From the NCBI GenBank assembly GCA_945873815.1, contig CAMCEE010000014.1, forward strand, positions 1 through 55,836: DNA of 55,836 nt, written 5' to 3'. Shown here piece after piece: positions 1,739-16,627 of the stretch. A program made the position numbers and the translations under genes. Within the stretch, counting starts at the first letter, position 1. Every line of letters starts with the position of its first letter. Source of the DNA: an uncultured Caryophanales bacterium (GTDB lineage: Bacteria > Bacillota_I > Bacilli_A > RFN20 > CAG-449). The notes under the pieces are model-generated. The model was not told the DNA's origin. It did no database searches and saw nothing but the letters and a program-made list of their open reading frames with translations.

Positions 1739-2281
1739 ATGGTTAAATGGATTATAGGAGCAATTATTGGAGTTATAGTAGTTATCAGTACATTCTTAGT
1801 ATTAGATCCTAACGTATCAATCACGAATCAAAACAATGTTTCTAATTCTTCTGAAGTAGTAGAGGGAGAAAAAATTAGTGTTTCCATCCAAGGTGCAGTT
1901 ATTAGCCCTGGAACTTATACTCTTCCAAAAGATGCTACACTTAAGGATTTAATTGAAAAAGCAGGTGGAATAGTATCTTCTGCAGATGTGGATTGTTACG
2001 ATGAATCGGTTGCAATAATGGGACATGACTCATTTTATATCCCATACATATCTGGCTTTTCCCAAGAATGCGTGCAATCTACTATCGAGAAAGTATGTAT
2101 AAATACTGCAACCAAGGATGAACTTGCAACAGTTAATGGGATATCTGCAACTATCGCTCAGAATATTGTGGCGTATAGAGAGGAAAATGGTCAATTTACT
2201 TGTTTAGAGGATTTAATCAACGTTTCTGGTATTGGAATCAAAACGTTTGAAAGAATTAGAGATTATATCTCTCTAAAATGA
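1739..2281 (+). CDS. comEA: competence protein ComEA, DNA receptor
   Basis: 180 aa. One N-terminal transmembrane anchor (about 3-22) is followed by a short Ser/Asn linker, an SLBB-type domain (about 47-105: ISVSIQGAVISPGTY, then a GGI turn) and two helix-hairpin-helix motifs (about 116-178: INTATKDELATVNGI and LINVSGIGIKTFERI). ComEA binds double-stranded DNA at the outer face of the membrane and passes it to ComEC. The stop codon TGA overlaps the comEC start by 4 nt (ATGA), so the two are translationally coupled. Its SD lies within the preceding terminator hairpin. Confidence 0.95.
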   Translation: MVKWIIGAIIGVIVVISTFLVLDPNVSITNQNNVSNSSEVVEGEKISVSIQGAVISPGTYTLPKDATLKDLIEKAGGIVSSADVDCYDESVAIMGHDSFYIPYISGFSQECVQSTIEKVCINTATKDELATVNGISATIAQNIVAYREENGQFTCLEDLINVSGIGIKTFERIRDYISLK

Positions 2282-4272
2282 TGTTTATTCCTTATATTTT
2301 TCTTTCATTTTTTCTAGGATTAATATGCTTAGAATATCCTTTTCTATCTATATTAGTCCTTTTCATCGTTTTATTTATCGGTTTTAGGAAACGTGAAAAA
2401 AAGTTTCTCATTCTTTTAATACCATTTATTGCTGGAATTATTATTGTTTTACTAAGTAGAATCAATATTTCTTCATCTTCATTTTTTGGCATTGTAACTG
2501 ATTCTAAAAAAAATTATATTATCTTAAGATCATATTTTTCCTCTTACTATGTTTATATTGAGAATAATCCATATGAAGTGGGTGACATATTAAGAATTAA
2601 CGGAAGCTTAGAGGATATTTGGCTTACTAATTATGAATCGCAATTTGATTTTGGAGAATATTTAAGAAAGAATTTTGTTTATAAGGAAATAAAATTCAAA
2701 GAAATAAATATCATCTTCTCTTCTTTTATTCGAATAAGAACGATACTTGAACATAATCTTTTAAATTATAATGATTATTCAAAAATGATTATTGGAAAAC
2801 TTGTATATAACGTTAATCTTGATGCTCAATACAATTCCTTAATCAATGAAAATCAACTCTTCTATCTATTATCGATATCATCTATTCATGTTTATCTTTT
2901 AAATTCAATAATAAAAAAAATATGTGAAATAAAACTTAATGAAAAAACTTCTATGGTGATTGTAATAATCATTAATTCTATGATGTATGTGTTATCTTCT
3001 TACAAGTTTTCAATATTAAAGGTTTTAATTTTTTCTATTATCAATTTCATAAATGAATATTTTCTAAAAAAGAGAAGAAATCGAGTAGAAGTAATATCTC
3101 TTTCGGGAATTATTATCCTTTTATTAAAACCATCATATGCTTTGAATATATCGTTTATTTATGGATTTTCAATTCCTTATTATCTCGTATTTATTCAAAA
3201 TGCATTATCTTCATTTAAAGAGAAACATCGTAAATATATAACATTATTTTTTTTGTTTCTTTTTATTATCCCAATAAATCTTATAAACAATGGAAGTTTT
3301 TCTTTGACTTCTATGATTTTATCGCAAATGATGATTCCTTTTATTTTTCCTTTTTTTGTTTTATCGATTCTTGGAATTCTCATTCCTTTACATTTTTTCA
3401 TCAATCCATTAGGAAAATTGATTTATCGATTAATATACGTAATCAGTAAATTATCAATAGAAATCAATATTGGTGAAATATCTATATTTTTTATCATTAT
3501 TTATTATTTGTTATTGATTATTTTAATCTATTTCACAGAAAATAAATCTAAAAGGAAAGGAATAGAAGTTATTTCAATTATTTCAATTCTTTTATATTTT
3601 TATTCCTTGCCGATAAAAAATAGATTTTCAACTACGATATCATTCATTAATGTTGGACAAGGATCATCTACTTTAATAATGCATCGAGGAATCAATGTGT
3701 TAATAGATACTGGTGGAATTATTGGAATTGATATTGCAAAAGAAACATTAATCCCATATTTTAAGAAAAAAAGAGTTAGAAGAATAGATTATGTTTTCAT
3801 CACCCATCAAGATTACGATCACACTGGAGCCCTGAGTTCACTTATCAATAATTTCAATGTAATTGATTATAATCACAATAATAATTTTTCATATCTAAAG
3901 GTAGGTGATATTGAATTTTATAATTTAAATCCATCATTTAGTAATGAATCCAATGATGATTCTTTAGTTTTATCTTTTTCCATTAATGAAAAAAGATTTC
4001 TTATTATGGGAGATGCATCAAAAGAGGTGGAGAAAAAATTGATTACAAAATATGATATCGACTGTGATTATTTGCTTGTTGGACATCATGGATCAGATAC
4101 TTCTTCAAATGAGGAATTTATAAAAAAAGCTTCTCCAACAGTAGCAATTATTTCATGTGGACGAAATAATTATTATAATCACCCGAGCGATGAAGTTATT
4201 GATATATTATGTAGAAATAAAGTTGAAATAAGAAGAACAGATAAAGAGGGGACCATCGAATATAAGATATGA
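2278..4272 (+). CDS. comEC: competence protein ComEC/Rec2, DNA uptake channel
   Basis: 664 aa. Layout: N-terminal hydrophobic helices (about 1-60); a soluble OB-like region (about 65-160); the competence membrane domain with many helices (about 185-440), including LFYLLSISSIHVYLLNS; and a C-terminal metallo-beta-lactamase domain (about 450-664). The last shows INVGQGSSTLI, FITHQDYDHTGAL, IMGDAS, VGHHGSDTSS and the NHPS motif. ComEC moves single-stranded DNA across the membrane, and the lactamase-like domain is thought to degrade the other strand. It is shorter than the Bacillus protein (about 776 aa). No ComEB/dCMP deaminase gene sits between comEA and comEC, unlike Bacillus. Confidence 0.95.
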   Translation: MMFIPYIFLSFFLGLICLEYPFLSILVLFIVLFIGFRKREKKFLILLIPFIAGIIIVLLSRINISSSSFFGIVTDSKKNYIILRSYFSSYYVYIENNPYEVGDILRINGSLEDIWLTNYESQFDFGEYLRKNFVYKEIKFKEINIIFSSFIRIRTILEHNLLNYNDYSKMIIGKLVYNVNLDAQYNSLINENQLFYLLSISSIHVYLLNSIIKKICEIKLNEKTSMVIVIIINSMMYVLSSYKFSILKVLIFSIINFINEYFLKKRRNRVEVISLSGIIILLLKPSYALNISFIYGFSIPYYLVFIQNALSSFKEKHRKYITLFFLFLFIIPINLINNGSFSLTSMILSQMMIPFIFPFFVLSILGILIPLHFFINPLGKLIYRLIYVISKLSIEINIGEISIFFIIIYYLLLIILIYFTENKSKRKGIEVISIISILLYFYSLPIKNRFSTTISFINVGQGSSTLIMHRGINVLIDTGGIIGIDIAKETLIPYFKKKRVRRIDYVFITHQDYDHTGALSSLINNFNVIDYNHNNNFSYLKVGDIEFYNLNPSFSNESNDDSLVLSFSINEKRFLIMGDASKEVEKKLITKYDIDCDYLLVGHHGSDTSSNEEFIKKASPTVAIISCGRNNYYNHPSDEVIDILCRNKVEIRRTDKEGTIEYKI

Positions 4273-11267: not shown

Positions 11268-12068
11268 ATGATTAGATTATTTGATATTGCAGAAGAAGGT
11301 CTTATCAATATTTCTTCTTCTAATGATTTTAGAAAGGAAGAATATAAGAAAAAGAATTATAAAGTTTGTAAAATAGAGATGATTAATGGAAATAAATATA
11401 GAATATCTAAAGGAAAATATTATTCTTTGTATTTTGATGATATAAAAGACGAAAAAACGTTTAATTCAATCTCTAAAGAACTTGTATCTTTAGTCGGTGA
11501 AATGATTGATGATAAATATAATAAGATTCTAATAGTCGGTATTGGAAATGATGATTTTGCTCCTGATTCATTAGGACCTAGAGTAGTTAAAAATATTAAA
11601 GCTACGTATCATCTAAGTGGAGAAAAGGAAACAAAAGTTGCTTGTATTATTCCAGGAGTAATGGGGGTGACGGGTTTAGAATCGGCTAGTATTGTTAAAG
11701 GGATAATAAACGAGAATAAAATCGATTGTGTGATAGTTATTGATTCTCTTGCAACAACTTCACTTGAACGTCTTAATCATGTTATTCAGATTACTGATAC
11801 GGGAATTAAACCAGGATCAGGAGTTTCTAATTATCGAAAAGGTATCAATAAAGAATATCTCGGATGTAAAGTGGTATCTCTAGGTGTAGGTACTGTAATA
11901 TCGCTTGAAGCATTGATTAATAATTTTGCATCTATAAAAATTAATAATAAATTCAAAGATTTAGTTTTTACTACGAAAGAGATTGAACTGAAAATTGACT
12001 TGATTACTGATTTATTATCTTCATCTTTGAATCATTTGTTACATCAATCCCAAAAGTTGACAAAATAG
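11268..12068 (+). CDS. gpr: germination protease GPR
   Basis: 266 aa. GPR cleaves the small acid-soluble proteins that coat spore DNA, in the first minutes of germination. The conserved core is intact: VGIGNDDFAPDSLGPRVVKNI (first acidic active-site region), PGVMGVTGLESA, VIVIDSLATTSLERLNHVIQI (second Asp) and DTGIKPGSGVSN. It is about 100 residues shorter than Bacillus GPR, mainly in the C-terminal part, and the pro-peptide region is short. The SD AGGAG is 12 nt from the ATG, unusually far. No SASP gene is in this window, but GPR only makes sense where SASPs exist. Confidence 0.93.
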   Translation: MIRLFDIAEEGLINISSSNDFRKEEYKKKNYKVCKIEMINGNKYRISKGKYYSLYFDDIKDEKTFNSISKELVSLVGEMIDDKYNKILIVGIGNDDFAPDSLGPRVVKNIKATYHLSGEKETKVACIIPGVMGVTGLESASIVKGIINENKIDCVIVIDSLATTSLERLNHVIQITDTGIKPGSGVSNYRKGINKEYLGCKVVSLGVGTVISLEALINNFASIKINNKFKDLVFTTKEIELKIDLITDLLSSSLNHLLHQSQKLTK

Positions 12069-14920: not shown

Positions 14921-14973
14921 ATTATTAGTAAAAATTCATTTTCCTTCGAATTAATAAAGTAGGAGGAAAAAAT

Positions 14974-15150
14974 ATGAGAGTATTAAATGAAAAAGAAATG
15001 AATGAAATTATTGGAGGTGAAGCTATTACTTTAACTGCAGTTCTTGCGGTTTTAGCTGCTGCAGTTGTTGCAGTTATCGTCTATAAGTTATTCATCTCAA
15101 ATAAAGGAGGAGCAACTCTTCCAGGTGGATGGAAATTTAGTTGGAATTAG
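14974..15150 (+). CDS. double-glycine-leader peptide (bacteriocin- or pheromone-like)
   Basis: 58 aa, found by reading the gap before radC. A perfect AGGAGG (14961-14966) lies 7 nt before the ATG. The leader MRVLNEKEMNEIIGG matches the pattern of leaders cut after Gly-Gly by peptidase-containing ABC exporters (hydrophobic residues at -4, -7 and -12, acidic/basic between). The predicted mature 43-mer has an Ala/Val-rich transmembrane-length helix (about 18-40), a KGG hinge and a cationic aromatic tail ending PGGWKFSWN, typical of small membrane-active peptides. No exporter or immunity gene is recognisable nearby. The stop is one base from the radC ATG. Confidence is high for a gene and moderate for the role. 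Confidence 0.8.
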   Translation: MRVLNEKEMNEIIGGEAITLTAVLAVLAAAVVAVIVYKLFISNKGGATLPGGWKFSWN

Positions 15151-15151
15151 T

Positions 15152-15850
15152 ATGGGTAGAATAAAAGATATTCCTAAAACAGACCAACCTCGAGAAAAAG
15201 CTTTATTTTATGGAATAAATTCATTATCTAACGCGGAATTATTAGCCTTACTAGTTAGTAGTGGAACAAAAAATCATTCAGCGTTAGAAGTGAGTTATGA
15301 GATGTTATCACATTTTAATGGATTAGATGGAATTGTAAATGCATCGATTAATGAATTAACTAAGATAAATGGTATAAATAAAATTAAAGCATTAAAACTA
15401 AAGGCTTCATTCATTTTATATGAAAGAGCAAAGGAAGAAACACATATCGGGAATTTTTCGTTAAAAGGAAGGGAAGAAATCGCTTTATATTTTCATGATA
15501 AATTATATAAGCAAGTTCAAGAAAAAGCTTTTGTTGTGATAGTTGATGGGAAGAATAACGTTAAATCGATTAAAGAAATCTTTAAAGGTAGTACGCATAA
15601 AATGACCATATCACCAAAACTAATTATTAGAGAGGTGATTGAGAAAGGAATAAGATTTTTTCTAATTCATAATCATCCATCTAATATCTGCGAACCAAGC
15701 AATGAAGATATGATTACTACCTCTCAAATTGAAATGATGTCGTATACTTTTGGTTTACAATTGGTGGATCATCTTATCATTACTAAAGATAATTATTATT
15801 CAATAAGCGATAATAAAAGATTCGAATATAAAAATAAGTCCAAAATATAG
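15152..15850 (+). CDS. radC: RadC-like JAB domain protein
   Basis: 232 aa from the ATG at 15152; the open frame extends upstream over the peptide gene in another frame, but homologous sequence begins at MGRIKDIPKTDQPREKALFYG. The N-terminal helix-hairpin-helix region (~1-100) contains LSNAELLALLVSSGTKNHSALEVS and INGINKIKALKLKASF. The C-terminal MPN/JAB domain (~105-232) has the metal motif HNHPSNICEPSNED. Despite the name, its role in DNA repair is unsettled. It has no clear SD and begins 1 nt after the peptide stop, so it is likely coupled to it. Confidence 0.93.
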   Translation: MGRIKDIPKTDQPREKALFYGINSLSNAELLALLVSSGTKNHSALEVSYEMLSHFNGLDGIVNASINELTKINGINKIKALKLKASFILYERAKEETHIGNFSLKGREEIALYFHDKLYKQVQEKAFVVIVDGKNNVKSIKEIFKGSTHKMTISPKLIIREVIEKGIRFFLIHNHPSNICEPSNEDMITTSQIEMMSYTFGLQLVDHLIITKDNYYSISDNKRFEYKNKSKI

Positions 15851-15860
15851 GACTTATTTT
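15831..15860. terminator. bidirectional terminator shared by convergent genes
   Basis: A perfect 11-bp stem (15831-15841 with 15850-15860) with an 8-nt loop. The stop codon of radC (15848-15850) and that of the - strand gene (15854-15856) both lie inside it. The A-rich and T-rich ends give T runs in both directions. Confidence 0.75.
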
Positions 15861-16627
15861 GCTTTTATTGTATCGTTTTCTTTCGTTTCATAATTACGTA
15901 TTATCGCGTCTATATCTTCGTCTGCATCTTGGTCGATAAATGCTTGTTTTGAATAGACATTATACGTTTCTTGACCAATTTGTTGAATTAGTTTTAAAAT
16001 AATTTGTTTTGTAATTAAATTTATGCTTGGGTTGATAATTAATTTTTTGACCCAAACTACGGGATTAATTGCATTTAACACCGTATATGCGCCTGATACA
16101 ATTTTACTTACTCCTGATTTTTGAATTCCTTTAACCACTTTATTGTTTTCTACAGTATTTTTTGCATTTATTAACTTGATGATAGTAGAAATTTTAACTT
16201 TTTGTAATGGTTTGAAACCTCTATTATCGAGAAGTTCTTCAATTTTATTGACTATATAACGATCGAGAATAATGATTTCTTCAAGTGTTAATTCTGCGAT
16301 TGGTTCGATAGAATCAGGATAGAATTTCTTAGCGATTGATTTGATTAATTTTATTATTATGTCTCTAATAAAGTCAAACTTAATTGCTTTTTCTTCTGCT
16401 TTTTTTTCTAAGAATTCTTTTTGTGCTTTTTGTATTTCAAATTTGATTTCATCATAAGGAACAGTAGAGTTAACATCTTTTAATGTAAATCTCTTATCAC
16501 TCATTTTATTTATTGTGATTAATGTGTAAATTAAAACAAACAATATGATGCCAAGAACCATACCGACTATAAGACTAACTAGAGTCGCCCAATTTATCGA
16601 AAATTCACTTTTTAATAATACTTGCAT
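15854..16627 (-). CDS. membrane-anchored helical protein of unknown function
   Basis: 257 aa, not recognised. One N-terminal transmembrane helix (about 15-38) is followed by a charged, helix-rich cytoplasmic domain: Lys/Glu-rich coiled-coil-like segments (~60-85) and a moderately hydrophobic region around 175-215 (SGAYTVLNAINPVVWVKKLI) that resembles the amphipathic part of DUF697/YcjF-like proteins, a weak comparison. SD CGAGGAAA precedes the ATG. The only - strand protein gene besides rpsT and the first gene of the window. Confidence 0.7.
   Translation of the reverse strand: MQVLLKSEFSINWATLVSLIVGMVLGIILFVLIYTLITINKMSDKRFTLKDVNSTVPYDEIKFEIQKAQKEFLEKKAEEKAIKFDFIRDIIIKLIKSIAKKFYPDSIEPIAELTLEEIIILDRYIVNKIEELLDNRGFKPLQKVKISTIIKLINAKNTVENNKVVKGIQKSGVSKIVSGAYTVLNAINPVVWVKKLIINPSINLITKQIILKLIQQIGQETYNVYSKQAFIDQDADEDIDAIIRNYETKENDTIKAK

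Follow-up and report, generated by a model that had tools for sequence, protein, structure and literature searches.

What does a bacterium do with a gene for a short peptide that carries a double-glycine (GG) leader and ends just before radC? GG leaders and C39 peptidases serve as markers of bacteriocins and pheromones, and the initial annotation of the window (the whole 55,836-nucleotide stretch of DNA analysed here) read the gene as encoding a secreted bacteriocin, pheromone or fratricide factor, possibly linked to the amidase encoded upstream. Our comparative analysis upholds the GG-leader gene, the remote C39 peptidase and the radC pairing, and speaks against secretion, fratricide and the amidase link. 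We assign a probability of roughly 0.6 to a housekeeping role: a single-span membrane microprotein whose GG precursor would be cut by a C39-membrane protease without an ATPase, and whose product would be kept in the cell's own membrane. The locus comprises the following features.

14961-14966, + strand: Shine-Dalgarno AGGAGG, seven bases 5′ of the ATG, read directly from the sequence.
14974-15150, + strand: precursor gene for a 58-codon GG-leader, presumably membrane-bound peptide, read from sequence and kept across the window's order (255 of 279 genomes).
14974-15018, + strand: leader MRVLNEKEMNEIIGG, 15 codons, with a predicted cut after GG (TIGR01847, 18.3 bits; cut-off, 15.7).
15019-15147, + strand: mature peptide EAITLTAVLAVLAAAVVAVIVYKLFISNKGGATLPGGWKFSWN, 43 residues (mean column entropy 1.12 bits, versus 2.15 for the leader).
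15022-15081, + strand: Ala/Val-rich hydrophobic helix, a predicted single membrane span (sequence and alignment).
15082-15147, + strand: positively charged tail YKLFISNKGGATLPGGWKFSWN (sequence and alignments).
15152-15850, + strand: radC, translationally adjacent and the conserved downstream neighbour (RadC Pfam, 92.8 bits; TIGR00608 over its cut-off).

The gene is real. The frame, ribosome-binding site, leader, Ala/Val helix and C-terminal PGGWKFSWN are all as first described, and conservation of the frame excludes a chance reading: the peptide gene was found by sequence in 8/8 genomes of the genus and 17/18 of the family and, with a 13-row profile, across the order as counted above, almost always in one copy. 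Among the 150 order genomes with completeness of 90% or more and contamination of 5% or less (hereafter good genomes), 148 have it. These genomes were drawn from one-per-species sets and are nearly all metagenome-assembled genomes (MAGs), for which absence from any single one is weak evidence. The GG region recurs in relatives as well. Its last Gly is invariant in 74 distinct order sequences. At P2, just 26 of them have Gly and the rest Val, Thr or other residues; a P2 residue other than Gly is atypical of canonical C39 substrates.

The leader exceeds the cut-off of its TIGR01847 family, in line with the earlier suggestion that it fits ABC-exporter peptidases. Whole-family models for class II bacteriocins score below theirs, with 20 against a cut-off of 25 for Antimicrobial17 (PF08129) and 15.1 against 27.1 bits for Bacteriocin_IIc (PF10439), and a Pfam search of the mature peptide matched no family. 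The tail follows an order-wide pattern, Y[RK]LF.S..G....PGG[FW]KF.W, and its net charge is +1 to +4 in most sequences.

A single-sequence scan of genome contigs with the peptide gave no matches, and an alignment scan yielded 80 named loci, all MAGs and filed mostly under Erysipelotrichaceae, Bacillales or Bacilli. In 74 of the 80, radC adjoins the peptide gene; four of the other six end shortly past it, and two (L069 and L121) carry other genes there. The unusual pairing pointed out at the outset, with radC starting at 15152, one base past the stop codon, is thus a regular feature of the order. Spacing is mostly −22 to +6 bases, which suggests coupled translation of the two genes. The commonest gene order is lon-engB-valS-peptide-radC-rplU-prp-rpmA-obg, with gene names assigned partly by eye from translations. 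Across the 74 distinct sequences, conservation of the mature part is roughly double that of the leader, although this locus set was fetched through C-terminal motifs, so that the invariance of PGG and W is partly built in and conservation is somewhat overstated.

Such a profile differs from that of an accessory, strain-variable bacteriocin with its own immunity and exporter genes: this is a core gene in a housekeeping neighbourhood. It also differs from a pheromone of the ComC/Blp type, as the conserved neighbourhood contains no linked sensor kinase or regulator and the mature sequence is conserved rather than diversifying. We discarded a mobile or plasmid-borne bacteriocin, for plasmids and phages gave no homologue, and likewise the upstream amidase as a functional partner, whose place is taken in other loci by valS, membrane proteins or unrelated genes.

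Two minor observations concern these loci. Convergent with radC in the window lies a gene for a 257-aa protein (15854-16627, − strand) that drew a blank in a Pfam search. One locus (L116, CAMBSI010000001.1) with the order's peptide-radC arrangement belongs to a MAG labelled Staphylococcus epidermidis, probably a mislabelled bin.

If the peptide is not a bacteriocin, what would cut its leader? The initial annotation saw no exporter nearby and placed the peptidase elsewhere in the genome, correctly on both counts. The one C39 protein above the family cut-off in the window's genome is encoded on a separate contig (G000:C9:3-1160, its start clipped by the contig end) and has membrane helices C-terminal to its C39 domain, without an ATPase; ybeY comes next. 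Similar C39-membrane proteins occur in 253 of the 279 order genomes and went undetected in eight good ones. Their frames mostly stop at 380-450 aa, again with ybeY next, and thus hold no C-terminal ATP-binding domain of the kind found in peptidase-containing exporters (PCATs). The N-terminal peptidase is intact: PF03412 was found in 16/16 of these proteins, and Q7, C13, H85 and D101, the expected active-site residues, are invariant although the proteins are only 20-30% identical overall. The catalytic residues of C39 peptidases are Cys, His and Asp (PMC6363468).

An AF2 model of the C39-membrane protein (mean pLDDT 83.5) shows, beside the C39 domain, six long helices in the arrangement of an ABC-exporter membrane domain. 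Among PDB entries it matches PCAT1 structures best (6v9z, E 1.5e-12; TM-score over the query, 0.62), and it also matches the solved C39-leader complex 6mpz; by sequence, Pfam ABC_membrane gave no match. The residues past the catalytic Cys number 376 in the median, versus about 487 up to Walker A in the PCATs of a related family (f20, below), so that the membrane part would be roughly 70 residues shorter if the ATP-binding domain begins some 40 residues before Walker A. We found nothing in the open-access literature on a radC-linked GG peptide or on an ATPase-less C39 membrane protein.

The peptide and C39-membrane genes are unlinked: in several genera where both are on one contig, they are encoded on opposite strands with some 46-70 kb between them. 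This distant arrangement is itself conserved (694445 versus 764103 on G258:C1; also G142, G119 and others). Upstream of the C39-membrane gene we noted YqfD, a stage IV sporulation protein, in one locus (L020:491-1447) and a DnaI-like protein in another (L026:538-1446).

A near-complete single-contig genome of the order (G258, 1.06 Mb) was read over 1,060,000 of its 1,061,998 bases. It has one GG peptide gene adjoining radC and one ATPase-less C39 protein before ybeY, and a leader-pattern scan turned up no other convincing GG-leader gene. Pattern scans of the same genome detected neither a type II/IV pilus ATPase signature nor a prepilin-like N-terminus.

With a broader profile, the peptide reaches two further families of the class, f20 and f25; we discounted leader-only matches in f17 and f22 as the usual resemblance among such leaders. 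The f20 peptides (for example, MYELTEMEMQSINGG...) are encoded at or near radC, at times in tandem copies, and nearly all peptide-bearing f20 genomes have a full-length PCAT with its ATPase, usually beside an aminotransferase gene. One f20 genus (g154) has three tandem GG-peptide copies upstream of radC (L245:2479-3068; L246:2-639), with one copy per set diverging.

The 196 sampled f25 genomes include peptides with and without a leader. A leadered peptide is present in 21 and a leaderless one in 31, in which the gene begins straight at the helix (for example, MTTSSILMFVAIAAGIAAIYKLLTSGRGRVSIPGIEMTWGK) with a ribosome-binding site in the leader's place; radC is present in nearly all of the leaderless loci read. 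A bare C39 domain of 111-127 aa lies immediately 5′ of ybeY, the slot that in the window's order holds the C39-membrane protein, in 16/21 leadered genomes, 0/31 leaderless genomes and 1/144 genomes where no peptide was found, this last being 68% complete. It retains Cys, His and Asp, has lost the N-terminal Gln and is modelled as a C39 fold. Five leadered genomes are without a detected C39 domain, one of them (G544) 97% complete. In one direction, then, the association has no exceptions. A raw Fisher test of leader against C39 gives 2e-9, a value on which we do not rely because the RadC tree can account for leader loss with one or two events; with so few independent repeats the joint loss is a strong anecdote, not statistical proof. 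Leader and peptidase were probably lost together, in one or two events, while the mature peptide was retained.

Two further observations concern f25. Between peptide and radC, some of its genomes encode a 137-145-aa protein, probably membrane-anchored and without a Pfam match (L161:3596-4033, L162:4350-4763). One genome with a leaderless peptide (G762; L311, L322, L323) also holds bacteriocin-type loci of the ordinary kind, namely two C39 proteins in 754-759-aa frames and a short C39 fragment with a separate GG-leader-like gene after it.

We propose a mechanism that starts from the observed conservation and synteny, the lack of an in-frame ATPase, the intact catalytic residues and the joint absence of leader and peptidase. 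The precursor would be made with its GG leader, which would be removed in the cytoplasm, at the predicted site, by the C39 peptidase that the order itself encodes in fusion with an ATPase-less membrane domain of ABC-exporter type. The 43-residue product would remain in the membrane of the producing cell, with its charged, aromatic C-terminal tail probably facing the cytoplasm and cytosolic partners, as the positive-inside rule predicts for a tail of net positive charge. The conserved neighbourhood, with radC and, in f20 and f25, mreC/mreD/minD, makes a role in the envelope, division or DNA maintenance the first candidate to consider.

As to origin, the system would descend from a bacteriocin- or pheromone-type (PCAT) system taken over for a core function in the ancestry shared by the order and the related families. 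Its machinery would then have been pared down differently: f20 would have kept the full PCAT with its ATPase, the window's order an ATPase-less C39-membrane protein and part of f25 a bare C39 domain, the rest of f25 having neither leader nor peptidase. We lean slightly towards the view that a secretion-type GG-peptide/C39 system was domesticated in this way to lineage-wide, non-secretory maturation, the families forming a reduction series from PCAT through motor-less protein and bare peptidase to leaderless peptide; both the secreted ancestor and the direction of change are what we infer from comparing them.

The alternative that fares best is that the peptide is a secreted pheromone or bacteriocin after all, still exported by the C39-membrane protein with the help of an ATPase, which may be supplied in trans, or of the proton gradient, as in transporters of the SbmA type. 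The leader passing the TIGR01847 cut-off, the ABC-exporter fold of the membrane domain, with SbmA among its weak structure matches, and the full PCATs of f20 would all fit such export. We nevertheless regard it as unlikely. Order-wide retention of a single core copy, a slowly evolving mature part, a processing protein without a motor and relatives that have dropped leader and peptidase make a secreted weapon or signal hard to uphold; the apparent shortfall in membrane length, the missing plasmid and phage homologues and the retention of the mature peptide in f25 with a bare peptidase or none point the same way. A role of the mature peptide in secretion, lysis or fratricide is unlikely.

A somewhat less probable alternative holds that the leader is an uncut relic in the order and that the C39-membrane protein has a different substrate. 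The drift of P2 away from Gly and the 46-70 kb between the two genes would agree with it, and set against them are the invariant catalytic residues, the near-complete genome with a single C39 protein and a single convincing GG-type gene, and the joint absence of leader and peptidase in f25.

That the peptide instead belongs to the competence machinery, as a minimal pilin-like or other competence-related product tied to radC, strikes us as improbable. It would draw on the fact that radC belongs to the core SigX regulon of streptococci (PMC5069739) and on the comEA-like gene in the window. The peptide, however, lacks the Glu+5 prepilin motif and has a leader of the C39 rather than the prepilin type, and the near-complete genome, which has both peptide and C39 protein, gave neither pilus-type secretion ATPase signature nor prepilin-like N-terminus in the pattern scan; on these grounds we rejected a type IV pilin or pseudopilin. 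A cis-acting small frame whose sole role is translational coupling to radC, as the tight spacing might suggest, is very improbable given amino-acid conservation across many genera, f20 and f25 homologues that are gene-separated from radC or in tandem repeats, and the persistence of the peptide without an adjoining radC in L121 and L069.

Returning to the proposed membrane microprotein, known systems resemble it in parts. PCAT/AMS exporters (PCAT1-CtA, ComA-ComC, LahT; 6mpz, PMC6363468) share the Cys/His/Asp C39 domain, the ABC-exporter membrane fold and a GG-type leader on a short peptide, whereas the order's C39-membrane protein has no in-frame nucleotide-binding domain, a shorter membrane part, a location away from its presumed substrate and the status of an order-wide core gene, and its product is probably not exported. 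Class II bacteriocins (TIGR01847, PF08129, PF10439) have a similar leader and hydrophobic helix, but the order's peptide falls below the whole-family cut-offs, is without an adjoining immunity gene or dedicated ATP-driven exporter and is a vertically inherited core gene with an order-wide conserved mature part. SbmA, a peptide importer, and BacA likewise have an exporter-type membrane fold without an ATPase motor; the order's protein differs in bearing a C39 peptidase, and the fold match is weak. In the AgrB-AgrD system, an ATP-independent membrane cysteine protease acts on a small membrane-bound precursor, a functional parallel in which the protease fold is unrelated; the order's peptide has no thiolactone cysteine, and no agrCA-like partner was seen.

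With peptide and protease both core in the order, the transporter motor-less and a related family keeping the mature peptide without leader and peptidase, the case would show that a GG leader need not imply secretion. If the proposal is right, ATP-free C39 membrane proteases also emerge as a class and RadC gains a conserved small membrane neighbour.

The description of the lineage as spore-gene-bearing and equipped with comEA and comEC agrees with other genes of the window. A germination protease (Peptidase_A25, 166 bits) is encoded at 11268-12068 and a comEA-like gene (SLBB plus HHH_3) lies at 1739-2281; directly after the latter, 2278-4272 encodes a protein of 664 aa that contains, like ComEC, a metallo-beta-lactamase domain.
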